Below, piece after piece: positions 4,965 to 45,615 of a stretch of DNA of 45,615 nucleotides. The stretch's first letter is position 1; every line of letters starts with the position of its first letter. Made by a program: the position numbers and the translations under genes. Source of the DNA: a virus. The stretch spans positions 1-45,615 of the IMG/VR virus record IMGVR_UViG_3300036846_000728; one strand, given 5' to 3'. The notes under the pieces are model-generated. The model did not search any database. It saw only the letters and a program-made list of their open reading frames with translations, and had not been told where the DNA came from.

Positions 4965-5891
4965 ATGAACGGCGGTGGGCAATGGGGTGGAGTTCCACTC
5001 TGGCTAAGCATGTCGGTGTCCCCGCGAGCTGTGCAGGTGTTCGCTGTGATCGCAGCGGCATGGACTGACCGTGACACGGGCATCGCTCGGCCCGGCCGGC
5101 GCGCAATTGCGAAAGCGGTCGGCTGCAAGGACCGCAACACGATCACGCTCGCGATCGATGAGCTGGTAGCGGCGGGGGCGATGGAGCGTGAGCATCGGTT
5201 CGTCAACGGACGAAACGACGGCAAATCGCAACTCACGAACAGTTATCGGTTGGTCAAACCGAGTGATCCACCCCTAGGTGGAAAAAACCACCTAGGTGGA
5301 AATATCCCCCTAGGTGGAAAAAACCCCCTAGGTGAGAAAACCCACCTACCTAGGGGGAAAAAACCACCTAGGGTAGGGGGAAATTTCCACCCCCAAAGAT
5401 CAGAATTAAGTACCCAGAATCAAGTACAGAACGATCTCTGCTTCGTACCAACGGATCAGGTTGTACCAACAAAAGAGCAGCCGCGCCAAAAAACCGGCGC
5501 GGCGACTCCGGAGGTTTCTGAAGATCCGGAGACGGAGGACGCTGAACCCGACTCCGTGTGGGATCCCATCCCGCCCGGCTCGCCCGGTTGGTTCGCCCCC
5601 CGTGACCCCGCCAGCTTCAATGCTCAGCTTGCGACGATGCCGATACCGGGCCGTTTCGCCTCGCCGGGCTATGCCCGCCGGAAAGGCTACGAAATTTTCG
5701 ACGCCGCGCCTGATACGGAGCTGTTCGACCACCACGTAGACCGGCTCATGAGCGTGCTTCAAGGCGAAGGCGTTGCCACGTCTGAAGACCAGTGTCGATT
5801 GACGATGGCGGATGTCTACACCGAACGTCAGATGCGCGACCGCACGTGGGATCGCACTGCTGACCATGAACGACGGAGGGCCAGACGATGA
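4965..5891 (+). CDS. Lambda O-like replication initiator (winged-helix replisome organiser)
   Basis: 308 residues. Residues about 8-100 match the N-terminal winged helix of phage/plasmid initiators: WGGVPLWLSMSVSPRAVQVF, then DTGIARPGRRAIAKAVGCKD (recognition region), ITLAIDELVAAGAMEREHRF and TNSYRLV. That pattern argues for the ATG at 4965 over the internal ATG 45 bases later. Residues about 103-145 are a Gly/Pro/Lys hexapeptide repeat (PLGGKN type) encoded by 18-bp iterons. The C-terminal half is proline-rich and acidic and ends in a helical segment that would be the expected place to contact a helicase loader or helicase. Gene O of lambda has the same order: DNA-binding domain, iterons within the gene, partner-binding C-terminus. 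No phage helicase is seen, so host DnaB is the likely partner. Confidence 0.7.
   Translation: MNGGGQWGGVPLWLSMSVSPRAVQVFAVIAAAWTDRDTGIARPGRRAIAKAVGCKDRNTITLAIDELVAAGAMEREHRFVNGRNDGKSQLTNSYRLVKPSDPPLGGKNHLGGNIPLGGKNPLGEKTHLPRGKKPPRVGGNFHPQRSELSTQNQVQNDLCFVPTDQVVPTKEQPRQKTGAATPEVSEDPETEDAEPDSVWDPIPPGSPGWFAPRDPASFNAQLATMPIPGRFASPGYARRKGYEIFDAAPDTELFDHHVDRLMSVLQGEGVATSEDQCRLTMADVYTERQMRDRTWDRTADHERRRARR
5269..5389 (+). repeat. In-gene iterons: putative replication origin
   Basis: CCTAGG cores start at 5273, 5291, 5309, 5327, 5349 and 5367, giving spacings of 18, 18, 18, 22 and 18 bp. The best unit carries the 12-bp palindrome CCACCTAGGTGG followed by GAAAAAAC. Diverged units keep the core and the A-tract. 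The array is followed by an AT-richer stretch (about 5390-5450). All of it lies inside the initiator gene, as in the lambda origin. Confidence 0.7.
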
Positions 5892-6151: not shown

Positions 6152-6262
6152 ATGGCAAACCACTTTACAGTTTCAACCGGATGGCTCGCCGTCCCGTCGC
6201 AGTTTTGGGAGATTCGGCGATGTGGCGGCCGAGTCGTCCGGTTGAAGGGAGCCCCCGCATGA
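6152..6262 (+). CDS. Small protein, 36 aa
   Basis: A short gene between two larger ones: its ATG directly follows the TAG of the zinc protein, AAGGA lies just upstream, and its TGA overlaps the next ATG as ATGA. The product (MANHFTVSTGWLAVPSQFWE, then IRRCGGRVVRLKGAPA) is a small beta-looking basic peptide with one cysteine. Function unknown. The ribosome site plus exact coupling on both sides make it likely to be translated. Confidence 0.65.
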   Translation: MANHFTVSTGWLAVPSQFWEIRRCGGRVVRLKGAPA

Positions 6263-6669
6263 GTCACTGGACGATGGCCGATGTGAAAGCGGTGCAGGCC
6301 CGCCGCGACGCCGCGACGCCGCCCGTCGCGCGCGCGAAGTATGGCAACAAAAAAACCGTGGTGGAGAACATCGCATTCGACTCGAAAAAAGAGGCGGATC
6401 GGTATCTGTTTTTGAAGATGCGCGAACGGCTGGGCGAGATCGACCATCTGGACGTGCAACCCGTGCTGCCCATCAACACGATCAGCAACGCCGGCGTCAA
6501 AAAACACTCGGCCGACTACACCGCCGATTTTCGGTACTACGAGCACTACTGCGGTCGGTCGGTGCTCCACATCGAAGACGTGAAAAGCCCGGCGTCGAAG
6601 ACCGAAGCCTACCGATTACGCAAGCAACTGGTGGAAGACTGCCACGACATCGTGATTGAGGAAGTCTAG
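6259..6669 (+). CDS. DUF1064-family nuclease (PD-(D/E)XK fold)
   Basis: 136 residues from the ATG at 6259, with GGGAG upstream. The family signature is clear: YGNKKTVVENIAFDSKKEA (28-46), then GEIDHLDVQPVLPI, then SADYTADFRYY with Asp90, and HIEDVKSPASKTEAYRLR with the acidic-x-Lys motif Asp107-Val-Lys109. Glu45 on the first helix completes a PD-(D/E)XK site. DUF1064 proteins are phage endonucleases thought to act on branched or recombination DNA, related to Holliday-junction or T7 endonuclease I-like enzymes. All expected catalytic residues appear present. It is encoded one gene before the terminase. Confidence 0.85.
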   Translation: MSHWTMADVKAVQARRDAATPPVARAKYGNKKTVVENIAFDSKKEADRYLFLKMRERLGEIDHLDVQPVLPINTISNAGVKKHSADYTADFRYYEHYCGRSVLHIEDVKSPASKTEAYRLRKQLVEDCHDIVIEEV

Positions 6670-6775: not shown

Positions 6776-7162
6776 ATGACGCGCACGTTTTGGTTGTCGT
6801 TTGCGGATCCGGCAGCGGGCGGCTTTCTCGGCGTCTGCGTGATCGACGTGACGGACCTCGACGCCGAACACATCCGCGTCCCGATGCTGCGCCGTCATCC
6901 GCACGCGCCGCCGGATGGCGAGTGGCTCGCAGCCGCCGTGCAAAAGGCGTGGGATCTGGGCTGCAATCCCGGTGGGGCCATTCAAGGGTTCGACATCACG
7001 CCGGCCCATGACATCATGCTGCCACGCGGGCAGTTGCTCACCGAAGAGGAACTGGATCGCTACGCCCGCGAACGGGCGACCGATGAAGGCCACCGCGAGT
7101 GGCACCGGCTCGAAGACGCGATGCGCCCCGGCGAACGGTTGAAGGACCACATTGACGACTGA
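6776..7162 (+). CDS. Hypothetical protein upstream of the terminase, 128 aa
   Basis: ATG at 6776 with GGGAGAAG upstream. The fold looks alpha/beta: N-terminal strands (TFWLSFADPAAGGFLGVCVI), a helix (GEWLAAAVQKAWDLG), a strand region (GGAIQGFDITP) ending at LPRGQLLTEEELDRY, and a charged helical C-terminus. The position directly before the large terminase is where a small terminase is often found, but there is no HTH and I do not make that call. It overlaps the terminase start by 11 bases. Confidence 0.75.
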   Translation: MTRTFWLSFADPAAGGFLGVCVIDVTDLDAEHIRVPMLRRHPHAPPDGEWLAAAVQKAWDLGCNPGGAIQGFDITPAHDIMLPRGQLLTEEELDRYARERATDEGHREWHRLEDAMRPGERLKDHIDD

Positions 7163-8735
7163 CTGGATTCCGCGCTTCGTGTGTCACTGGTGTGGCGCGG
7201 AGTACGTCTCGCGCACGGTGAACAACGTGGACGCGTGGACGTGCCCCACGGACGCGTGTTTTAAGCGCCAGCTCAAATGGAAAATGCTCGATCAGAACGG
7301 CCACCTGTTCTACTTGCCGCTCCCGCGACAAGTCGAAGTCGAAGAGGCGATCGAGACGCAGGCATATGGCTTCATCGGCATCGGGGGGCATCGGAACTCT
7401 GGCAAATCCGCGATGCTGCGGCGCGTCTGCTATCGGCTCTGTCAACGCTTCGAAGATTTTTCGATCCTGTTTCTGCGACGCAATTTTCCCGAACTCCAGT
7501 TGAACCACATGCGCTACGCGATCAAGGAGTCGAAGCGCATCGGCGCGAAGTACTCGGCGAAGCAGATCGATTTTCCCGAGACGGGCTCCGAATTGATCTG
7601 GGGCCACTGCTACAAACCCGACGACTATAAAAACTATATCGGGGCCGACGTGGACCTGATCGTGTTCGAGCAGCTCGAAGAATTCGAAGCGATCCAGTTC
7701 ACCGAGATCAGCGCGTCCACCGGGCGCACGCGCAAGCGCCGCGACTGGCGCGGGCTCGTCTTGGCCGGCGAGAATCCCGGCGGCCCGCTCTCCGCGTTCG
7801 TGGAAGAATTCTTCATTCACAAAAATCCGAAACCGGAGCTGTACCCGGACTACGACGGATCGCAGTACCACTTCATTCACGCGTCGCTCGAAGACAATCC
7901 GTACGCCGATCCCCGGTATGTGAATAATCTCGCGACGCTGAGCCCCGCGCGCCGCCAGATGTTCCGCTTCGGTCGCCGCGATATTTTCCCGCTGCAGTAC
8001 TTCAAGACGTTCCTACGTCCCGATCGCGTGCAACGCCTGACCGTGCCGTCCACCGTGCCCCGGCTCTGTGCGCTCCATTGGGGCTTCTTCAAGCCGGGCA
8101 TTTTCCTGTGGGGCGTGGTGCTGCCCGATGGGCGGCTCTACATCGAGCGCGAATTTCCGTTTGTCGAAACCGTCGCGTCGGATCTCGCGCACGCGATCGT
8201 GAAACGCAATCGCGAGCTGCAGATCACCATCGGCGGATTCGCGTGGGCGAACGCCCCCGGCAAAGTCACCGACGATGACATCGGGGAACACACGTTCGAG
8301 ACGCTGCACCGCCACGGCTTACCGGTGGTGGAATCGACCCACGATCCGGTCGCCGGCTGGCAGCGGCTGCAGCACTGGTTCGAACCGATGATCACCGATG
8401 ACGGCCCCGTGGCCGCGCTGATCGTGAGCCCCGACTGCGACACCGTGATCCGCACGCTCCCGCAGCTCCTGCAGGATGGGCACAACGCCGAAGACATTGA
8501 CGACAACGGCCTGACCGAAGCGGCGAAAGCGTTGCGCTATCTCGTGATGTCGCGCCCGGAACCGCCGATGATGGCCGCGCCGCCGAAGGGCCGCGATCTG
8601 TCGAAGCTGGATGCGCGCACGCGCGGCGAAATTGAATATCTGCGGGCGTGCGACGCGGCGAGCGAGAACGCCGCCGCCACCGAGTCGTACTCGATGGGTG
8701 ACTTCTGGGGGGGGAGTGATCATGACCCACGATGA
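7152..8735 (+). CDS. terL: Terminase large subunit with apparently inactivated nuclease domain
   Basis: 527 residues from a TTG start with GAAGGA five bases upstream. Domains: zinc ribbon (CHWC, then CPTDAC; about 11-35); ATPase with Walker A GGHRNSGKS (Lys85, Ser86) and a Walker B-like strand VDLIVFEQ (167-174), where the usual Asp-Glu reads Glu-Gln; RNase H-like domain from about 300. That fold is recognisable (GFFKPGIFLWGVVLPDGRLY, PVAGWQRLQHWFEP, AKALRYLVMSRP), yet where active terminases have Asp there is His309 (LHWGFF), Asn367 (AWANAP) and Lys459 (TEAAKALRY). The motor packages DNA into the procapsid; here the cutting step may be lost or done by another protein. No gene for a small subunit is recognised. 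Confidence 0.88.
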   Translation: MTTDWIPRFVCHWCGAEYVSRTVNNVDAWTCPTDACFKRQLKWKMLDQNGHLFYLPLPRQVEVEEAIETQAYGFIGIGGHRNSGKSAMLRRVCYRLCQRFEDFSILFLRRNFPELQLNHMRYAIKESKRIGAKYSAKQIDFPETGSELIWGHCYKPDDYKNYIGADVDLIVFEQLEEFEAIQFTEISASTGRTRKRRDWRGLVLAGENPGGPLSAFVEEFFIHKNPKPELYPDYDGSQYHFIHASLEDNPYADPRYVNNLATLSPARRQMFRFGRRDIFPLQYFKTFLRPDRVQRLTVPSTVPRLCALHWGFFKPGIFLWGVVLPDGRLYIEREFPFVETVASDLAHAIVKRNRELQITIGGFAWANAPGKVTDDDIGEHTFETLHRHGLPVVESTHDPVAGWQRLQHWFEPMITDDGPVAALIVSPDCDTVIRTLPQLLQDGHNAEDIDDNGLTEAAKALRYLVMSRPEPPMMAAPPKGRDLSKLDARTRGEIEYLRACDAASENAAATESYSMGDFWGGSDHDPR

Positions 8736-9732: not shown

Positions 9733-12183
9733 ATGGCGTTCCCACCAAGTGCGCCCGTCCAGCCACCACCGCCGGCCGCGCCTCCCGCGACGGGGGCTCC
9801 GGCGATCGTGAAGACCGATCAGCCGATGCAGGACGCGGACTATCTCAAGCTCTATGATCGGTTCAAACGCGAAGCCTTCGCCGACCGGTGGCGGTTCGAA
9901 CGCGTGTGGACGCGCAACATTCACTATGTGAATTTGCGGCAGTGGTTGGGGCAGTACGATCAGGCCAACGGCTGGCGGGATGCCCGCGTCGCGCGCGGCG
10001 TCCCGAAACCGGTCACCTCGAAACCGAAAGAAGCGGTGCAAGTCATCCGCTCGATGTTCACCGCCACGACGCTGGGCGTCGATGTGCGGCCCCTCCGCAA
10101 CGACGTGAAGAGTGTGACGACGGCGACGACGGCGACGAAGATGGCTCCGCTGCTCGCGAAGTTGAACGCGATGACGGACACGATGAGCGAAGGGGATTTC
10201 TGGTTCATCGTCACCGGCAACGTGATCTATCACGTCGGCTTCGATGACAACGGCAAGTACGTCGGCGTCCCGGTGGAGCACTGTGTGACGTGTGGGAACG
10301 AAGTGACCAGCGACCAGATCGCGCAAGCCGGGCAGGCGTGCCCCAAGTGTCAGACGCCAGCGGCCGGCAACTTCACGCCCGCGCTCGATCAGGCCGGGCA
10401 GCCCCGCAAGCAGTTCAACCCGCAAGGGCAGACGGTCACGACGGCGCTGTCGCCGCTCGAAGTCGCGTTCCCGTTCATGCGCGCGCGCTGGAAGGACGTG
10501 GATTTCCTGATCCGGATGCGCTGGCGCACGAAGCGGTACTACGAGACGCATCCGGCGCTGCAGCCGTACCTGTCGCGCATTTCGTTCTCAAAAAATTCCA
10601 CCGAACGCTCGCTGCAAATTTTTCAGTCGCTGCCGTTCCAGACCGAGATCAACCCGATCGCCAGCGGCGTGAGCGGGAGCGCCGAAGAAGAAGGCGTGGC
10701 TGAGTACGAGCTGTGGATGAAGCCCACGCCGGATCATCCCGAAGGGCTCGTGCTCCGGGTGGCCGGTGACAGCTCGCCGATCGTGCTGCACCTCGAAGCG
10801 TCGGAAGGGATCCCCGGTCCCTTGCCGTACCACGACGCCAGCGGCGATCCGCGCTGGACCTTTCATCACGCGGGCTACGAACAGGTCGGCGGCCGTGTCA
10901 TCGCGAGCAGCGCGATCGATCCCGTCATCCACAAATTCGATCAGCTCAATCGGCTGGATTCGATTGTCGAAATGATGATGACGCGCATGGCGATCCCGCA
11001 GATCCTCAAACCCAAGGGCCAAGAAGTGATGTGGTTGGGTGACTCCCCCGCGATGCCGGGGCTCGTCGCCGAGTACGCGCCCGGCCCCGGTGGCGGCAAA
11101 CCGGAGCTGTGGCGCGGCGCAGAACCGCCGCGCTCGTGGGCGGTCTTGCGCGAGCAGATTGTAGCCGAGATCGATGCCGGCATGGGCATCTCCGACATCC
11201 TGAAAGGCAAACAGCCGCAAGGCGTCGAAGCGTTCTCGGCGATGCAACTCTTGGTGGAAGCCGGCGAAGCGCGCTTCGCGGGTGCGTTCCAGTCGCGCGC
11301 CAATTGCTATCGCGATATCTCCCGCTCGCAAATGGAGATCGAACGCGAGTACGGGCCGCCGTCACGGACCGCGTCCGTGCTGAGTGAGTCGCGATCGTAT
11401 GCGTTCGACACCTACCAGACCGCCGATCTCGATGGGGAAGTGGAATTCGATGTGGCGGACGGATCGACGCGGCCGAAAACCTCGCTCGGCGAGCGCGCCG
11501 CGATCGAACATCTCCACCAGCTCGGGGGCATCGATCTGAAAAATCCCGAGACGCAGTACACGATTTACCAGAAGTTCGGCCAGACCGATCTGATTCCCTC
11601 GATCGACAAGCAACACCAGTGTGCGCTCCAGAATCAGGATGCGTTCGTGAAGTGGGTGAAGAGTACCAACATTCAGCAGTACATCCCGCCGCCGCCCCCG
11701 CCGCCGCCGCTCCCCGGTCAGCTCCCGCCGCCGCCGCCCGCGCCGCCGCCGGATCCGGAAACCGATCCGACCTACCCGCTCAAGATGCGTCAGTGGTACG
11801 ACACGCCGATTCATCGGCTCGAACTGGTGAAGTGGGCCGTCAGCGATGTGATGCTCGATCTGTTCAAGCAACTGCCGCCGGCCGAATTTTTCGTGGGCCG
11901 GTACTTGGCGCAGCTCGAAGGGCGCATGGCTCAAGAGCACAAGATACCGCCGGAACCGTTGCGGACCAGTCTCACGCTCAACGGGGCGGATCTGCAGACC
12001 GATCCGCAAGTGCGGATGGCCTTCGATCAGGCCCAGCAATTACCGCCGCCGCCCGCGCCGTCCACCGCTGGCCCCGCGCCGCCGCAAGGGGGAGCCGGGC
12101 GCGCGATGGCGAACTCCTCGCAGAACAGCGCCCCGGTGGGCAACACGCCACAACCGGGCTCGCCCGCGTTGGTGGCGCACTGA
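9733..12183 (+). CDS. Portal protein (P22-like), 816 aa
   Basis: ATG at 9733 with GAGGGG upstream. A proline-rich head (1-30) precedes the portal core: DADYLKLYDRFKREAFADRW, then NIHYVNLRQWLGQ and KEAVQVIRSMFTATTLGVDV, typical of the long portals of P22-like podoviruses. A cysteine pair insert at 184-206 (CVTC and CPKC) likely binds zinc. The middle has helices and strands of the clip/stem region (RLDSIVEMMMTRMAIPQILK). Around 650-680 is a polyproline tract, then a helical C-terminus and a Pro/Ala/Gly/Asn tail. The dodecameric portal sits at one capsid vertex, binds the terminase, and is the exit channel. Its length is above the roughly 725 residues of P22, mainly because of the low-complexity parts. 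Confidence 0.85.
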   Translation: MAFPPSAPVQPPPPAAPPATGAPAIVKTDQPMQDADYLKLYDRFKREAFADRWRFERVWTRNIHYVNLRQWLGQYDQANGWRDARVARGVPKPVTSKPKEAVQVIRSMFTATTLGVDVRPLRNDVKSVTTATTATKMAPLLAKLNAMTDTMSEGDFWFIVTGNVIYHVGFDDNGKYVGVPVEHCVTCGNEVTSDQIAQAGQACPKCQTPAAGNFTPALDQAGQPRKQFNPQGQTVTTALSPLEVAFPFMRARWKDVDFLIRMRWRTKRYYETHPALQPYLSRISFSKNSTERSLQIFQSLPFQTEINPIASGVSGSAEEEGVAEYELWMKPTPDHPEGLVLRVAGDSSPIVLHLEASEGIPGPLPYHDASGDPRWTFHHAGYEQVGGRVIASSAIDPVIHKFDQLNRLDSIVEMMMTRMAIPQILKPKGQEVMWLGDSPAMPGLVAEYAPGPGGGKPELWRGAEPPRSWAVLREQIVAEIDAGMGISDILKGKQPQGVEAFSAMQLLVEAGEARFAGAFQSRANCYRDISRSQMEIEREYGPPSRTASVLSESRSYAFDTYQTADLDGEVEFDVADGSTRPKTSLGERAAIEHLHQLGGIDLKNPETQYTIYQKFGQTDLIPSIDKQHQCALQNQDAFVKWVKSTNIQQYIPPPPPPPPLPGQLPPPPPAPPPDPETDPTYPLKMRQWYDTPIHRLELVKWAVSDVMLDLFKQLPPAEFFVGRYLAQLEGRMAQEHKIPPEPLRTSLTLNGADLQTDPQVRMAFDQAQQLPPPPAPSTAGPAPPQGGAGRAMANSSQNSAPVGNTPQPGSPALVAH

Positions 12184-13296: not shown

Positions 13297-14703
13297 ATGC
13301 AGTTGTTTTTCTACACGGGACTTCGCCGCGTGGGCGATGTCCTCACCAGCCTGACCCAATCGCCTGACGGCCTGTTCTGGGCCGGTCCCGGTTCTGACGC
13401 GTCCACGGAAGACGGCCTGCTCAAAAACACGTACGAAGACGTAATAGCGGAAGGCGTGCTGAAAAAATTTCAGCTCCGCGACGCGTTCAAACTCAAAGAC
13501 AGTCCGTGGGACGGCGGGCGCGGGAAAGAGTGGAGCGCCCACGTCGAACGCAACAACTCGCCGATGGCGGTCGGATCGGACAGTGCGATCCCCGTCGCGG
13601 ACAACCAAAAATATATTTCCGGGTTCGTGTCGCAGAAAAAAATCATGGCGCGGTGGCGCGTCACCAACGAGCAGCTCGATGACACGCAGTCGCGGGAAGG
13701 CTCCTATCGCTCCTCACGCACCGAGAACATGGAGCGGATGATCGATGACCTCGCGTTCAGAAACGAGTTCTACCTCGGGACCGATGGACGCGCCGTGTTC
13801 GGCATTGTCGATGCGACATCGGTCGGCACCACCGTGGAATTGAACTCGCCGGGCAATATCTCGTCGGCCGGTGTCCCCATTGCCAGCGCCTTCGGCAATC
13901 GTTTCGTCAAGAAGGGCATGGCGATTGCCGCCATCAATCCCAGCAACGGGCAGATCCGCCCCAACGTCGTCAAAGTCACAGCGGTCAACAGCGACGGCAC
14001 CGACGTGACCGTGAGTGCCGCGCCCGGCTGGACGACGGGCGACTATGTGGTGCAAGCCGCGAACGTGACCGTCACCGATGCGCTCGATACCGCGTACGAG
14101 AAAGCGCCGTGGGGTCTGACGGCGATCATCGATGACGGCACGTACCGGCAGAACTACTTCGGCGTCGATCGGTCGCTGTGGACGAACTATCAATCGTACG
14201 TCTCGGCGAACACGGGCGCACTCTCCTTCGATTTGCTGCAGCGCGTCTCCGATATCGTGAACCAAAAATTGGACGGAGAAGTGGACGGGATCTGGTCGCA
14301 CCATTCCGTGCGGCGCGTCTACATCCTGCTCACGCAAGCCGATCGGCGGTACGCCGATGCGGCCAGCCGGCGCAATCCGGACGGCGGCACGGCGGCGTTC
14401 CAACAGGAAGATCTCACGATGGGCAGCGTCAACTACAAAGCGATCCGCACGCTCGGCTTGCGCCAGATGTTTTTGGTGGACAGCAAGGGCACGGACTTCG
14501 TGCGGTACACGAGTGAGAAAGGCAAGTGGGTGTCCGGATCGTCTGGCGAGATTCTCGTGCGCGATGGGACCGGCATCAACGCGCGGCATAGTTGGGAAGC
14601 GTGGTACTTCATGCGGTTCCAGCTCTTTGGTCGGAACCCCGGCAAGTGCGCACGCCTCGATGCCTTGACGGGCATGACGTTCGTGGTGGTCCGGGGCGAA
14701 TAG
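13297..14703 (+). CDS. Major capsid protein (HK97 fold), 468 aa
   Basis: ATG at 13297 with AGAGGT upstream. After the shared N-terminal motif (QSPDGLFW, 21-28) comes a typical capsid sequence: an N-arm (EDGLLKNTYEDVIAEGV), an E-loop region (GGRGKEWSAHVERNN), spine and P-domain (RTENMERMIDDLAFRNEFYL), a Gly/Val-rich beta domain, then A-domain segments (SFDLLQRVSDIVNQKLDGEV, HSVRRVYILLTQADRRYAD). It ends ARHSWEAWYFMRFQLFGRNP and ALTGMTFVVV, close to P22/other podovirus-type capsid C-termini. It builds the icosahedral shell. No scaffold domain is fused to it. Confidence 0.85.
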   Translation: MQLFFYTGLRRVGDVLTSLTQSPDGLFWAGPGSDASTEDGLLKNTYEDVIAEGVLKKFQLRDAFKLKDSPWDGGRGKEWSAHVERNNSPMAVGSDSAIPVADNQKYISGFVSQKKIMARWRVTNEQLDDTQSREGSYRSSRTENMERMIDDLAFRNEFYLGTDGRAVFGIVDATSVGTTVELNSPGNISSAGVPIASAFGNRFVKKGMAIAAINPSNGQIRPNVVKVTAVNSDGTDVTVSAAPGWTTGDYVVQAANVTVTDALDTAYEKAPWGLTAIIDDGTYRQNYFGVDRSLWTNYQSYVSANTGALSFDLLQRVSDIVNQKLDGEVDGIWSHHSVRRVYILLTQADRRYADAASRRNPDGGTAAFQQEDLTMGSVNYKAIRTLGLRQMFLVDSKGTDFVRYTSEKGKWVSGSSGEILVRDGTGINARHSWEAWYFMRFQLFGRNPGKCARLDALTGMTFVVVRGE

Positions 14704-15835: not shown

Positions 15836-16428
15836 CGAATTGGATCAAGCAGTTTACGCAGTCTCCCGATGGTCTGCTGTGGGCCGCGCTCGCGCCGCTG
15901 CCGACGACGGAAGCGGAGAACCTCACGTGGCAACGCGTGGATATGCTGCTCGCGGGCGCGACGCCCGGCGCAGTGTCCGCGTTTCAAGGCTTGCGTAAAT
16001 GGCTCACGCAGCAAAAATCCTGTCCCGATCTTCGGATGACGCAGCTCGGGAACAACGCCGTCGCCCCGCTCGGCCTCATCACCGCCGGTACGGGCGGCCT
16101 CTACGGCGCGACGACCACCGCGCGCCTCTTCGGCGTCTACATCAAAAAAACCGCCGTGGCGGGATCCGCGCTCCCGTCGTATCTCACGCTCACCGATGAT
16201 GGCACCGATAGCGCCCTGTCGGGTCTTGCGGGATCGCAAAAACTCGCGATTCCACTCGGAGCCGTGAGCAGCGGCGCACCGGGCACGATCTACGAAGGGC
16301 TGTTCATCGATCCGAACGGCCTGCCGCTGGCAGCGGGGCTGCGCTTCGCGCTCGTCACCGCCGTGGGCGGCGTGACCATCAGCGCAGCGGCAGACGGCGG
16401 CGACGGCTTCTGCATCACATCGCCCTAG
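15832..16428 (+). CDS. Virion protein with shared SPDG N-terminal motif, 198 aa
   Basis: ATGA overlap with the previous gene. The N-terminus MTNWIKQFTQSPDGLLWA matches the motif of the scaffold and major capsid proteins. After a helical part (NLTWQRVDMLLAGATPGAVS) the protein becomes beta-rich and Gly/Ala/Thr-rich (GGLYGATTTARLFGVYIKK, SYLTLTDDGTDSA), ending GGVTISAAADGGDGFCITSP. This composition suits a capsid decoration protein or minor capsid/tail protein. Family unknown. Confidence 0.75.
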   Translation: MTNWIKQFTQSPDGLLWAALAPLPTTEAENLTWQRVDMLLAGATPGAVSAFQGLRKWLTQQKSCPDLRMTQLGNNAVAPLGLITAGTGGLYGATTTARLFGVYIKKTAVAGSALPSYLTLTDDGTDSALSGLAGSQKLAIPLGAVSSGAPGTIYEGLFIDPNGLPLAAGLRFALVTAVGGVTISAAADGGDGFCITSP

Positions 16429-16531
16429 CTCGCCCGCGCTCGACAGGAGAGCGCCCCTCGTGACGACGGTGCGCCAGCATGGCGACGGATGCCTGTCCAT
16501 CCGTCGCCCCAGTGGCGCGTGGAGAGACATC

Positions 16532-16861
16532 ATGCCGACACGTCGCATTCAACGCGGCCCACAAACCGGCGGCCCGCCGGTCGGGTTCCAGAATTCCCCG
16601 GCCTTCAACGAACTCTACGTGGATGGCCTCACCAATCAACTGATGGTGGGCACCGGCATTTCGGGCGCGACCGCCGTCCAGCAACAGCAATTCCCGGCCG
16701 TCGTCACGTTCGCCAATCTCCCGACGCCCGCCGTCGAAGGCACGCTGGCCGTCGTCACTGATGCGACCTTGGCGACGTGGGGCAGCGTGATCGTGGGCGG
16801 CGGGGCGAATCGCGTCTTGGCGTACTACAACGGGACCGCATGGACGATCGCGGCGCACTGA
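16532..16861 (+). CDS. Small virion protein, 109 aa
   Basis: Start set at the ATG at 16532 (MPTRRIQRGPQTGGPPVGFQ) because GGAGAG precedes it; a GTG 72 bases upstream is weaker. After a basic, glycine-rich arm the protein is beta-rich (NELYVDGLTNQLMVGTGISG, PTPAVEGTLAVVTDATLATW) and ends LAYYNGTAWTIAAH, a pattern common in phage fibre/attachment modules (a strand-turn unit with NGTxW). Probably structural. Confidence 0.7.
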   Translation: MPTRRIQRGPQTGGPPVGFQNSPAFNELYVDGLTNQLMVGTGISGATAVQQQQFPAVVTFANLPTPAVEGTLAVVTDATLATWGSVIVGGGANRVLAYYNGTAWTIAAH

Positions 16862-16873
16862 CGGGGAACCGCC

Positions 16874-17248
16874 ATGACGGATGCCTATCAGCGCAACAAA
16901 GAATTCTACGGGAACATCGGTGGCTACTATCACGTGGCCGCGACCGACAACAACGTGATTCCGCTCGTCGCCGCGATTCCCAAGCACACGATTTTCGTGC
17001 AACGGATCCACGTCGAAGTGACGACGCTGGCCGCGTCCGAACTCTGGACGTATCAGGACGGCGCGGCCATCCCGATCGTGCCGGCCGTGTCGGCGGGGGC
17101 CATCGCGCATTTCGATTTTGACTTCGGTCCCGATGGTGCGCCTTGCACGGAAGGCACGCCATTTAATCTGAACATCACGGGCGCGACAGGCGCTGTAGGG
17201 TGGACGACGTGGGAAGGGTACAAAAAACTCACCAGCGCGGTTCCATAG
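16874..17248 (+). CDS. Small beta-rich virion protein, 124 aa
   Basis: ATG at 16874, 12 bases after the previous stop. Sequence MTDAYQRNKEFYGNIGGYYH followed by alternating hydrophobic strands (TIFVQRIHVEVTTLAASELW, GAIAHFDFDFGPDGAPCTEG, FNLNITGATGAVGWTTWEGY). It resembles a single jelly-roll or Ig-like beta domain. Genes 17542, 17993, 27554 and this one share that size and style, so they may be related decoration/tail proteins. Function unknown. Confidence 0.75.
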   Translation: MTDAYQRNKEFYGNIGGYYHVAATDNNVIPLVAAIPKHTIFVQRIHVEVTTLAASELWTYQDGAAIPIVPAVSAGAIAHFDFDFGPDGAPCTEGTPFNLNITGATGAVGWTTWEGYKKLTSAVP

Positions 17249-36397: not shown

Positions 36398-36427
36398 CGC
36401 GCGCGCGATCAGGCGTACGCGATCAGG
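36398..36427. repeat. GATCAGG tandem repeat, copy set 1
   Basis: Two GATCAGG units at 36407-36413 and 36421-36427, 14 bases apart, in CG-alternating flanks (CGCGCGCGCGATCAGGCGTA). The array fills the 38-base gap between genes 36423 and 36196 and runs into the stop codon of the former. Copies with the same 14-bp period occur at 39404-39438 and 41120-41188. Confidence 0.6.
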
Positions 36428-41097: not shown

Positions 41098-41190
41098 GCG
41101 GCGGTCCCGCCGCGCGCGCGATCAGGCGTACGCGATCAGGCGCGTATGGCGGTCCCGCCGCGCGCGCGATCAGGCGGGCGCGATCAGGCG
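41098..41190. repeat. GATCAGG tandem repeats, copy set 3, inside a 48-bp duplication
   Basis: GATCAGG at 41120-41126, 41134-41140, 41168-41174 and 41182-41188; the two pairs keep the 14-base period. The block beginning GGCGGTCCCGCCGCGCGC is duplicated 48 bases apart (from about 41100 and about 41148), each copy ending in a GATCAGG pair. It lies in the gap between genes 41199 and 40749. Confidence 0.65.
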
Positions 41191-41432: not shown

Positions 41433-41901
41433 ATGGCCACCATGATCGGCCGAACCGATCGACCGTGGCAAGGCAGCGCCACACGTTCGTGTGACGTGTT
41501 CGAACGCCACCACACCACACGGAGTTGTCAGCCGATCGCGCAGCCAGCCCGGCAGCCGGGAAGAACAAAGTCAGCCCCCGCATACTTCATTACTGCATGT
41601 CAACAGGTATCTGCGTCCAAAACTGCACACTTTTACCGTTTTGGCGATACCGCTAGAACGCGTCAGGATGACTCTGGAGCGACGCAAATTCGATCCAGCC
41701 ACCTTGGTATTACCCGTTTACCGTTCGTCAATCGTGGGGCAAATGTCCACTAAAGTGGAATGCAACAGTTACAGGGATCTGCGACTGTCCCGGCTGGGCA
41801 CACTACCTATAGGCTGTCGATCGTGCTTGACTCATTACCCGTTGACATGGGAAGATACCCGTTGACGTTTGGATGAACCGAACGCAAGGGAGTTAGATGA
41901 C
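41433..41901 (+). other. Non-coding divergent region before the MoxR cassette
   Basis: This 469-base gap holds no convincing gene. It contains a palindrome TCCACT-AA-AGTGGA (41746-41759) that looks like an operator, a perfect CACACGTTCGTGTG inverted repeat near 41482-41495, repeated TACCCGTTGAC words (41836-41846 and 41856-41866), and several TTGACT/TTGACA/TTGACG boxes (41827, 41842, 41862) without a well-spaced -10. The cassette's promoter is probably here but cannot be pinned. Confidence 0.5.
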
Positions 41902-42924
41902 ATGTTGATCGATGACTTGAAAGTGCTGCTCAGTGAAGCGATCGAGAACCGGGATCCCGTCATGGTGACAGGGGCACCGGGGATCGGAAAGTCTGATCTG
42001 TTTTGGTGGGCTGCCAGCGACGCAGACGCAGACATCATCCTGAGTCATCCGGCGGTCAGTGATCCAACCGATATCAAGGGGCTGCCGTGGGTAGTAGACG
42101 GCGCTGCGTCGTTTCTGGCGTTCGGGGATCTGCGTCGTGCGATCGAAGCAACGCGTCCGACCGTTTGGGTATTTGACGATCTGGGGCAAGCGACACCAGC
42201 CGTACAGGCGTCTGCGATGCAATTGTTTCTAGCGCGCGAAGTGAACGGACACAAGATCAGTCCGTTCGTGACGTTCTTTGCTGCCACCAACAGACGGACC
42301 GATCGCGCGGGTGTTTCGGGGATCCTTGAACCGGTTAAATCCCGGTTCATCACGATCGTAGAACTGCAGGCTGACATCCTGTCATGGTGTCGCTGGGCAC
42401 TCGATCATGACGTACCGCCGGAGTTAATCGCTTTCCTGCGATCGTTTCCCGATCTGCTGTCCGCGTTCGTCCCATCGGCCGATCTGACGAACAGCCCCTG
42501 TCCGCGTACGTGGGCACACGCAGCGCGCCTACTCCGTTACAAGCGACTGTCAGCCAGCGCGCGCCATGAAGCACTATCGGGGGCTGTCGGCGAAGCCGCA
42601 GCCAATCAATTGTTGGTGTACCTGCGGATGTACGCCGAACTCGTGAACGTCGATCAGATCCTTCTGAACCCAGCGACAGCCCCGATCCCGACCAGCCCAT
42701 CGCAGCTATACGCGATCGTGTCGGCGCTGGCGTACCGTGCCACGGCTGGCAACTTCGATCGGATCGGTCAGTACATCACGAGACTCATGGACGGACACCG
42801 GGAGTTCGCTGCGCTCTGCGTCAAGGACAGCGTACGACGCCACCCGGAAACAACGCAGACGGCTGCATATGTTCGGCTGGCTGTTGGTGACTTTGGGCAA
42901 TTGCTGTCAGGGAGCGCACTCTAA
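41902..42924 (+). CDS. MoxR-family AAA+ ATPase, 340 aa
   Basis: I start at the ATG at 41902, nine bases after AAGGGAG, rather than at an upstream TTG. Walker A GAPGIGKSD is at residues 24-32, Walker B VWVFDDLGQA at 88-97, and the sensor-1 region FFAATNRRTDRAG follows, with LEPVKSRF as the likely arginine-finger segment. The C-terminal helical lid completes the fold. MoxR ATPases act as remodelling machines, often together with a VWA-domain partner. Here the partner gene follows two genes later, so the three probably form one complex. TAATG overlap with the next gene. Confidence 0.85.
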   Translation: MLIDDLKVLLSEAIENRDPVMVTGAPGIGKSDLFWWAASDADADIILSHPAVSDPTDIKGLPWVVDGAASFLAFGDLRRAIEATRPTVWVFDDLGQATPAVQASAMQLFLAREVNGHKISPFVTFFAATNRRTDRAGVSGILEPVKSRFITIVELQADILSWCRWALDHDVPPELIAFLRSFPDLLSAFVPSADLTNSPCPRTWAHAARLLRYKRLSASARHEALSGAVGEAAANQLLVYLRMYAELVNVDQILLNPATAPIPTSPSQLYAIVSALAYRATAGNFDRIGQYITRLMDGHREFAALCVKDSVRRHPETTQTAAYVRLAVGDFGQLLSGSAL

Positions 42925-43817
42925 TGGATACCACCACGAACGCCACCACGATCGGATCTGCCATCCATACGCGCGCGCTGCTCGTCTGGCTGCATATCAG
43001 TACATGGTCCGCACGCAAGTACGACAAGCGCGCCACGGCCGAATTGACGCAGCGGTACAACGCATCATCGGACGGCGCGCGCGTGAACAAGTTGTTGCTT
43101 CCGGGTGAAGCACGCGCCTATAAGACTCTGACCAGCTTAGCCACCACGATCCGCGCGCAGCACTACGCGAATACCCTTGCATGGTCCGATGAAGGGTGGC
43201 GTCTGTTGCCAACAGCGAACTATGCGACCTATACCGCATGGCTGCGCACGCAACAGCGCGCATTCGGTACGGCGCTGACAGAGTTCACGGATGACTACCC
43301 AGCACTACGCGGGCTGGCGATGCAACTTCTAAACGGCCTGTACTCCGATGCGGATTACCCATCGGTACAGGATCTGCGAACACGGTTCGCGCTGTCAGTC
43401 GAGTACGCGCCTGTCCCGGCTCAGGGTGACATCCGGGTGGACCTTGGATCCGATCAAGTGGCGCTGATCGAGACTGCGATCGCCGAACGCCACCAGCGCG
43501 CCACGGCTACGGCTGTAACGGACGCATGGTCCCGGCTGCATGAAGTTGTCAGCAAGATCGCCGAACGCCTGTCACAGCCGGATGCAATCTTTCGCGATAC
43601 GTTGATCAGCAACGCGGAAAACGTGTGTGATGTACTCAAGCGACTGAACATCACGGACGATCCCGAACTCGAACGAATGCGCGAACGCGTGCGGAAAGAA
43701 CTGACCCGGTACAGCCCCGAGACTCTGCGCGATGTGCCCGCGCATCGTCAGCAGACCGCCGATCGCGCTGCTGACATCCTGTCCGCCATGTCGGGATTTT
43801 TTGAGGTAGCCAAGTGA
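42924..43817 (+). CDS. Helical partner protein of the MoxR-VWA cassette, 297 aa
   Basis: ATG at 42924 overlaps the ATPase stop (TAATG) and its own stop overlaps the next start, so the three genes are coupled. It is almost entirely helical (LLLPGEARAYKTLTSLATTI, SRLHEVVSKIAERLSQPDAI, PELERMRERVRKELTRYSPE), with a central beta-poor stretch. It resembles the DUF3150-type middle protein seen between MoxR ATPase and VWA-metallopeptidase genes; I am not certain of the family. Likely a substrate adaptor or structural partner. Confidence 0.65.
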   Translation: MDTTTNATTIGSAIHTRALLVWLHISTWSARKYDKRATAELTQRYNASSDGARVNKLLLPGEARAYKTLTSLATTIRAQHYANTLAWSDEGWRLLPTANYATYTAWLRTQQRAFGTALTEFTDDYPALRGLAMQLLNGLYSDADYPSVQDLRTRFALSVEYAPVPAQGDIRVDLGSDQVALIETAIAERHQRATATAVTDAWSRLHEVVSKIAERLSQPDAIFRDTLISNAENVCDVLKRLNITDDPELERMRERVRKELTRYSPETLRDVPAHRQQTADRAADILSAMSGFFEVAK

Positions 43818-45046
43818 TGAGTACACAAGCCACGCAACGAGTGACAGCGGCGCGCGCTGCGCTCGTACTCGATCAGCCGTTCTTCGGAGTGCTGGCGCTG
43901 CATCTGCGGCTGCAGGAAGATACAACCTGCAACACGGCATGGGTAGACGGTCGGACACTCGGGTATAACCCATCGTTCGTCAACAACCTGTCAGGTAATG
44001 AACTGGTCGGGCTGATCGCGCATGAAGTACTACACTGCGCGTTCGGCCACCCGTGGCGCAGGGAGGGACGCGACGCAAAGCAGTGGAACATCGCGTGTGA
44101 CTACGCGATCAATTCCGTGCTGCGCGATGCAGGCTTCACGCTGCCATCTGGCGCGCTGCTGAGTGACGAATTCAGCGGACACCATGCTGAGTACATCTAT
44201 GACCGCTGCGGACAGCCAGAGCAGCCGCAGCCGCAGCCGCAGCCCGGCAGCCAGCCGGGACAGCAGCCGCAAGGACAGCAGCCGCAGCCCGGCAGCCAGC
44301 CCGGACAGCAGCCGCAGCCCGGACAGCAGCCGCAGCCCGGACAGGGAAGCGATCAGGGTGAAGTACGCGACGCCCCAACAGACGCAGACGATCCCAACGG
44401 CATGACGGAAAGTGATTGGAAAGAAGTCGAGAAGCAAGCCGAAACACTGGGCCGTGGTTCGCTGTCGGCTGGCGCTGCGCGCGGGCTGTCCGAACTGCAG
44501 CGGCCGTTAACGGATTGGCGGTCACCGCTGCGGCGCTTCATGCAGGAGATCAACACGGCGGATTATTCGTGGCAGCGGCCGAACGTCCGGTACATTGCTA
44601 GCGGCATGTATCTTCCATCGCTGCGCAGCGAAGCATGCGGAGTGCTGGCTGTTGGTGTGGATACCAGCGGTTCGGTCGATCGCGTGTTGCTGTCGCAGTT
44701 CGGCGCTGAACTGCGATCGGTGATCGCAGAGGTACAGCCAAGGAAGGTGTACGTCATTTACTGCGACTACGATGTATGCGGATTCGATGAGTACGATCCA
44801 TGCGACTACGATTCGATCGAACTCGATCCGCGCGGTGGTGGTGGTACCAGATTTTCGCCAGTGTTCGATCGTCTCGCTGCTGAAGCGATCGAACCGGCTG
44901 CGCTGGTGTACTTCACGGACCTTGACGGTCCGATCCCCAGCGCCGTACCACCGTACCCGGTTCTCTGGGCATGCTCAGCCAGCAACGCAGCGCAACGATC
45001 GCGCTGCAGCCAGCCCGCGTTCGGCGACGTGATACCTCTCGTGTGA
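43817..45046 (+). CDS. VWA-domain putative zinc metallopeptidase (DUF2201-like), 409 aa
   Basis: ATG at 43817 with GAGGTAG upstream; a GTG three bases earlier is possible. The N-terminal domain carries HEVLHCAFGH (His69, Glu70, His73; HExxH plus downstream His78), a zinc-peptidase signature. Residues about 132-178 are a Gln/Pro/Gly low-complexity linker (QPQPGSQPGQ...). The C-terminal domain is VWA-like with the MIDAS motif DTSGS starting at Asp282 and a later DLDG. Proteins of this domain pair work with MoxR ATPases. Whether the peptidase is active is unknown. Confidence 0.85.
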   Translation: MSTQATQRVTAARAALVLDQPFFGVLALHLRLQEDTTCNTAWVDGRTLGYNPSFVNNLSGNELVGLIAHEVLHCAFGHPWRREGRDAKQWNIACDYAINSVLRDAGFTLPSGALLSDEFSGHHAEYIYDRCGQPEQPQPQPQPGSQPGQQPQGQQPQPGSQPGQQPQPGQQPQPGQGSDQGEVRDAPTDADDPNGMTESDWKEVEKQAETLGRGSLSAGAARGLSELQRPLTDWRSPLRRFMQEINTADYSWQRPNVRYIASGMYLPSLRSEACGVLAVGVDTSGSVDRVLLSQFGAELRSVIAEVQPRKVYVIYCDYDVCGFDEYDPCDYDSIELDPRGGGGTRFSPVFDRLAAEAIEPAALVYFTDLDGPIPSAVPPYPVLWACSASNAAQRSRCSQPAFGDVIPLV

Positions 45047-45581: not shown

Positions 45582-45611
45582 TTGACAGGGTTCCACCGAA
45601 TGTGGTACGGT
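45582..45611 (+). promoter_or_regulatory. Promoter candidate P2 at the right edge
   Basis: TTGACA (45582-45587), 18-bp spacer, TACGGT (45606-45611), with an extended TGG before the -10. By analogy with the leftward promoters, a gene probably starts within a few bases beyond the window. Confidence 0.5.
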
Positions 45612-45615
45612 GAAG

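Follow-up and report, generated by a model that had tools for sequence, protein, structure and literature searches.

Can the large terminase (TerL) of a tailed phage serve as a packaging motor when its nuclease domain has lost the catalytic acids? The question is raised by one gene of the IMG/VR record IMGVR_UViG_3300036846_000728, which comprises 45,615 bases and is called the window in the following. A first-pass annotation had described His309 (LHWGFF), Asn367 (AWANAP) and Lys459 (TEAAKALRY) in the places of the three nuclease aspartates, here called catalytic positions 1, 2 and 3, and these residues are indeed read in the translation of the open reading frame. We consider it probable, at roughly 0.78, that the protein is the translocating packaging motor of an uncultured tailed-phage family and that its RNase H-like domain cannot cut DNA.

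The terminase gene and its family

The gene product matches Pfam Terminase_3 (E 3e-5) and the PHROGs group phrog_979 'terminase large subunit' (E 2e-15). It adjoins portal and capsid genes, as phage large terminases do, and the order TerL, portal, capsid is identical in the seven related records that were compared. The genes of this region are:

4965-5891, upstream of TerL: replication-initiator-like gene (PHROGs)
6776..7162, plus strand: small gene, possibly the small subunit by its position; weak match to phrog_13485 (function unknown)
7152..8735, plus strand: TerL, 527 aa, TTG start (Pfam, PHROGs, open reading frame without internal stop)
9733..12183, plus strand: portal protein (phrog_156), kept in the seven related records compared
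13297..14703, plus strand: major capsid protein (phrog_14242), used as query for further family members

The start of TerL is the Met directly before the first aligned residue of the relatives L002 and L005. The small gene lies directly upstream and overlaps TerL by 11 bases.

Viral contigs were searched with the TerL protein, a family profile, a C-terminal profile, the capsid protein and a capsid profile. Besides the TerL of the window, 13 further distinct family TerLs with identities of 40-93% were found. Left out of all family counts are L003, whose TerL is the same as that of L002, and L016, a second copy on the contig of L015; in the record G065 the capsid gene is present and a TerL match was not found. 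A mixed profile matched 222 relatives; among the best 80 of these are 9 family loci, and the other 71 are more distant. Identities between 31% and 64% were absent from the best 80 of the 222 relatives in this viral profile scan, a gap which the scans with the C-terminal domain and the capsid protein filled with members at 40-52% over the whole TerL. The scan of genome contigs yielded no relatives of the window TerL. Ten records of a plasmid collection matched the TerL search; in the three of these that were inspected (L018, L019, L020), Asp occupies both position 1 and the Asp-x-x-Arg-Tyr position.

The alignment A5, made with MAFFT, contains the 14 distinct family TerLs and 51 of the 71 distant relatives, which are called canonical here and are 23-29% identical to the window TerL. 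The 20 that were dropped are 14 with a protein identical to a kept one, the truncated L033, the close copies L047, L080 and L089, L091, which was simply omitted, and L099, whose open reading frame did not align. L033, L047, L080, L089 and L091 do align, likewise with Asp retained at positions 1 and 3. In the phage collection, the nearest named TerLs among the matches listed (40 of 277; 15 of 95) are those of HMO-2011-like and Arthrobacter phages with about 25-30% identity. Four of them were aligned (Jinkies, HTVC115P, Slicky01 and KBurrousTX), and positions 1 and 3 are the canonical Asp in each.

With the TerLs of P22, SPP1, G20c and D6E and with the 51 relatives the family shares the two-domain architecture, the Walker A motif, the NPGG motif and the fold. 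It differs from canonical TerLs in the pair Gln174 and Glu176 and in four N-terminal cysteines, each found in 12 of the 14 members. Throughout the 51 canonical relatives Asp stands at positions 1 and 3 and Glu at residue 174, whereas the family lacks the three acids of the nuclease. No report of such a TerL family outside phi29-like phages was found in the literature searched by title and opening of the abstract, a search that left subscription journals mostly outside.

Loss of the catalytic acids in a conserved fold

The features of the nuclease domain, placed by the A5 alignment and a structural model, are:

8019..8576, plus strand: RNase H-like (nuclease) domain, residues 290-475 (model compared with solved TerL nucleases)
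8076..8078, plus strand: His309, catalytic position 1, in strand beta1
8250..8252, plus strand: Asn367, catalytic position 2, directly after beta4
8526..8528, plus strand: Lys459, catalytic position 3, in the C-terminal helix 456-466

Position 1 is occupied by His in 12 and by Gln in 2 family members, position 3 by Lys in 11, Asn in 2 and Thr in 1, which means no acid in any of the 14, whereas both positions are Asp in all 51 canonical rows. The A5 profile aligns the columns of these two positions with the Asp of the D6E and P22 terminases. Asn367 at position 2 is invariant (14/14). MAFFT set the canonical second Asp two columns further on, at 369, which is Asp in 50 of the 51 canonical rows and P (10), L (2), I (1) or E (1, in L005) in the family. 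The Asp-His pair that precedes position 3 is largely gone as well: column 455 is acidic in 51/51 canonical and 2/14 family rows, and column 456 is His in the same proportions. No family-wide acid was gained at any of the three positions among the 14 members.

A close relative with Asp, which would make the window protein a lone degenerate copy, was looked for and not found, and the loss is common to all 14 distinct members. An alternative register with three acids was likewise sought by sequence alignment and predicted secondary structure, and none appeared. The H/N/K pattern itself is kept in part: the acids are lost in all 14 and Asn is invariant, but positions 1 and 3 vary, with Gln at the former and Asn or Thr at the latter.

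The structural model of TerL was computed from A5 (65 sequences) and reached a mean pLDDT of 85.2 and a pTM of 0.61. It has a two-domain fold with an ASCE ATPase and an RNase H-like domain. The nuclease domain (residues 280-468) matches the P22 TerL nuclease 4dkw with Z 16.9 (2.5 A over 168), G20c 5m1o with Z 15.2 (2.8 A, 169 residues) and SPP1 2wbn with Z 15.1 (3.0 A, 165 residues), and the ATPase half (40-279) matches P74-26 4znl with Z 19.5 (2.9 A over 212). For the whole chain Foldseek gave low TM-scores, the highest being 0.37 when normalised by query length, in our opinion because the two domains probably sit differently, and we therefore relied on the domain matches. In the nuclease domain strands are predicted at 304-311, 314-323, 329-337, 360-366 and 392-394 and a helix at 456-466. 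H309 falls in beta1 (304-311), N367 just past beta4 (360-366) and K459 in the C-terminal helix. Compared with the general layout of an RNase H active site, the model puts the three residues at the active-site positions, a placement drawn from predicted secondary structure and sequence profiles.

The dN/dS ratios of six pairs (Nei-Gojobori, own script) are 0.05-0.20 for the ATPase (residues 58-285) and 0.11-0.28 for the nuclease domain (residues 290-475). Both halves are therefore under purifying selection, and neither is decaying freely. This selection also speaks against simple decay, which had already been thought unlikely from the intact surroundings. Together with the loss of the acids in 14 of 14 members and the kept RNase H fold, this selection supports the proposal of a packaging ATPase that does not cut DNA itself, as far as the residues allow such a function to be read.

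Two observations count against a non-cutting domain, the single Glu at column 369 in L005 and E332 (window 8145-8147, beta3), which is invariant in the 14 family members and acidic in none of the 51 canonical relatives. The domain might accordingly still cut DNA with other residues, a relocated active site to which H309 and N367 could in principle contribute by binding metal. We regard this as unlikely. Of the columns between 290 and 475 with an acid in 13 or all 14 family rows, only that of E332 is non-acidic in the canonical relatives, and from the general RNase H layout we take it to be too far from the active site. Moreover, the exchange of His for Gln at position 1 and of Lys for Thr or Asn at position 3 does not look catalytic.

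The ATPase half

Three features of the N-terminal half are needed here:

7182..7259, plus strand: N-terminal Cys4 motif C11-C14-C31-C36, zinc-finger-like (alignment of family rows)
7383..7409, plus strand: Walker A, GGHRNSGKS, residues 78-86 (A5)
7668..7679, plus strand: end of Walker B, E173-Q174-L175-E176 (A5)

Walker A is intact as first described, with K85 and S86 in all 14 family TerLs. The first-pass annotation had also noted that the Asp-Glu of Walker B reads Glu-Gln (VFEQ), and only half of this is unusual. Residue 173 is Asp in 9 and Glu in 5 family members; Glu is ordinary at this place because it also occurs in 19 of the 51 canonical rows (Asp in the other 32). Q174 does stand out, since residue 174 is Gln in 12 and Glu in 2 family members and Glu in 51/51 canonical ones. 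Residue 176 is Glu in 12 and Thr in 2 family members, and in the canonical rows it is Thr (37), Gly (11) or Cys (3) and never Glu (0/51). The rows with Gln174 and those with Glu176 are the same 12, and the two that keep Glu174 have no Glu176.

In such ATPases the glutamate that follows Walker B has a catalytic role, and Gln at 174 by itself would be expected to stop ATP hydrolysis. If the ATPase works with a shifted glutamate, the gain of a glutamate two residues on in exactly those members that lost Glu174 is the expected pattern. Judged from these alignment columns, ATP hydrolysis probably persists, with residue 176 in place of 174 providing the catalytic glutamate, and the pair is better read as such a shift than as a defect.

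The two exceptions, L110 and L111, have neither Gln174/Glu176 nor the N-terminal cysteines, and they differ from the window TerL unevenly along their length: the ATPase half is 30% identical and the nuclease half 55%. For each of the other 11 relatives the identities of the two halves lie no more than 8 points apart. In our reading, L110 and L111 have exchanged the front half and kept the dead back half. That the dead domain is shared by L110 and L111 despite an ATPase half of another type was counted in favour of a motor without cutting activity.

Cys4 motifs bind zinc, and the motif of TerL, with all four cysteines in 12 of the 14 family rows, is by its sequence possibly zinc-binding. The pattern CxxC-N16-CxxxxC occurs exactly in the Gln174/Glu176 members, that is the window and 11 relatives.

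It is also conceivable that TerL is no motor at all: the terminase may have decayed or been put to another use while the DNA is packaged by a different ATPase. The block of hydrolysis expected from Q174 would agree with this, as would a HerA-like DUF87 ATPase that is encoded in 5 of 14 records (G002, G003, G012, G063 and G064). No DUF87 match was obtained in the remaining 9 records, the window among them, and the HerA-like ATPase was rejected as the alternative motor for this reason. As both TerL halves are under purifying selection, E176 covaries with Q174 and TerL precedes the portal and capsid genes in an unchanged order across the 8 records compared, we hold a terminase without motor function to be very improbable.

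In the preferred reading of a motor with a dead nuclease domain, TerL would bind ATP and translocate DNA through the portal, and the C-terminal RNase H-like domain would no longer cut. The domain may have been retained for DNA binding, as measured for the phi29 domain, and for docking to the portal, as is believed for other terminases. The genome ends would then be made by means other than TerL, either by another nuclease or by a replication that gives unit-length molecules.

Formation of the genome ends

Phage phi29 offers a close comparison, because its gp16 also combines a packaging ATPase with an RNase H-like C-terminal domain without catalytic acids. PMC7672431 connects the loss of these acids with a unit-length genome and reports that DNA binding by the domain persists. 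The phi29 domain has been reduced by a strand of the sheet and a helix, and its sequence can no longer be recognised as similar to TerL nucleases. In contrast, the nuclease domain of the family is of full size, and its TerL is 23-29% identical to canonical TerLs. As a full-size two-domain TerL it is not a member of the phi29 gp16 family. Genes for a protein-primed replication (terminal protein, type B polymerase) were not found among the open reading frames of the window scanned with Pfam and PHROGs.

A replacement cutter was sought among the 16 family records. Profiles of canonical TerLs and of the nuclease domain (E up to 1) gave no second TerL or TerL-type nuclease domain in any of them; they found one TerL in each of 15 records and none in G065. 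Since 8 of the 16 records are fragments below 30 kb, a further nuclease could be missed. One candidate lies upstream of TerL:

6247..6669 as scanned, plus strand: DUF1064 (PF06356), predicted PD-(D/E)XK nuclease (Pfam E 3e-15)

The first internal ATG of this stretch is at 6259, and the longest open reading frame starts from 5812. The assignment of DUF1064 to the PD-(D/E)XK nucleases was made as a proposal in PMC1189080. Such a protein could cut the concatemer in trans while TerL only translocates. Of the 15 TerL-bearing family records, 12 have DUF1064 upstream of TerL at a distance of up to 4 kb (in G011 below the cut-off), as against 6 of the 27 canonical relatives that have at least 4 kb upstream; these counts are not independent because the family members are related. 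The copies from 11 records, the window included, keep the predicted catalytic E, [AP]DF and D-x-K. On the other hand, DUF1064 was not found in G063, G064 and G010, all with the same dead nuclease; at 48 and 44 kb, G063 and G064 are about as long as the longest records of the family. For lack of a match in these three records, DUF1064 was downgraded from a universal replacement nuclease to a candidate. It also occurs in 9 of 50 canonical relatives, and a cut by DUF1064 in trans appears rather doubtful for the family. An open reading frame of G063 is DUF559-like and one of G064 homing-endonuclease-like, both by matches below the Pfam cut-offs only.

A different solution, with the logic of phi29 and another kind of end, would be a unit-length linear genome with palindromic, possibly hairpin-closed ends, for which no terminase cut is needed. 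It was considered because of the contig ends, of which that of the window carries the following element:

45582..45615, plus strand: right-end element, outward TTGACA-N18-TACGGT-GAAG at the last base (comparison with family ends)

The right ends of the window and of G001 lie 5 bases apart, and with the additional 5 bases G001 completes a 10-bp palindrome, TGAAG|CTTCA; a scan for the right tip of the window matched only G001. G012, in TerL orientation, begins with a perfect palindrome of 60 bp. G008, the contig of L015/L016 with 84,424 bp, is an inverted dimer about its left end with halves of about 42 kb and one TerL per half; around the centre, 5,576 bases were compared and match perfectly between the halves. 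TTGAC[AG] in outward orientation, followed by a hexamer starting with TA 17-18 bases on, is found in the window, G001, G063, G008, G009 and at the left of G012. Within 60 bp of the end the outward motif occurs at 10 of 32 family ends and the inward one at none, where by density about 1 of 32 would be expected; at 40 control ends from 20 canonical records the numbers are 2 and 0. The 32 ends come from 16 family records including fragments, the left end of G008 is the dimer centre, and the right ends of window and G001 mark one place. The left tip of G012 is not among the 10, because the palindrome places its motif over 60 bp away from the contig end. Direct terminal repeats of at least 12 bp are present in 0 of 16 family and 4 of 20 control records (12, 77, 107 and 127 bp). 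Two contig-end matches, L242 and L258, obtained with a query whose spacer was one base shorter than in the tip of G008/G009, were discarded, as they gave no tblastn match to family open reading frames.

The palindromes, the inverted dimer of G008, the end shared by window and G001, the excess of outward motifs and the lack of terminal repeats all favour such ends, as does G063 (L205), which has close to its left end, at 597-1529 in TerL orientation, a ParA ATPase and after it a ribbon-helix-helix gene, a hint at a plasmid-like state in one member. Several points oppose them. ParA is above the cut-off in just 1 of 14 records, 22 of the 32 family ends have no TTGAC[AG] within 60 bp, and one of the four control repeats measures only 12 bp. 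Inverted contigs can arise as artefacts of assembly or amplification, dispersed repeats may likewise break contigs, and the end pattern also fits assembly breaks at palindromes. Unlike in N15-type telomere phages, the telomere resolvase (protelomerase, PF16684) was not found in 13 family records at E up to 1, several of them fragments and with G063-G065 outside the search. A circular molecule with an inverted junction was weighed against a linear one: the two tips of G012 differ, which speaks against a single palindrome in a circle, but the right contig end of G012 is perhaps not natural. The contig-end element and the palindromic tips are thus an unproven hint of defined, possibly hairpin-closed genome ends, and we treat the unit-length linear genome as a tentative alternative, possible though not favoured. 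The fuller proposal is a little more tentative still. It holds that the family packages unit-length linear genomes with palindromic or hairpin-closed ends and outward promoter-like elements, and it would follow from such genomes that the nuclease of TerL has been lost permanently, with the domain serving as a docking piece. If true, the family would have reached a non-cutting motor by a second route, independently of phi29; its virion genome ends would be of a kind new to tailed phages, and the catalytic glutamate of its motor would have moved.

The findings suggest that the family packages its genome without the usual cutting. It is an apparent counter-example among ordinary two-domain TerLs, which separates cutting by the nuclease domain from the other roles of this domain, and it makes testable how a phage fixes its genome ends without a terminase cut. 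Surveys that demand the nuclease residues before a TerL is accepted may discard such proteins; in one published pipeline, as described in PMC7947584, these residues were used with others to judge a few sequences that did not align.

The right arm of the window contains an identical 30-bp repeat at 36398-36427 and 41111-41140, 4.7 kb apart. Near the right end an AAA ATPase, with weak AAA_5/AAA_16 matches below the cut-off, shares a block (41869-45046) with a DUF2201 metallopeptidase/VWA protein that is strongly matched; in our view this block is uncommon phage cargo. A protein of 460 aa, encoded at 1535-2917 on the minus strand and without a PHROGs match, is 30% identical to the product of 15854-17170 (plus strand) in G009, at a quite different location.
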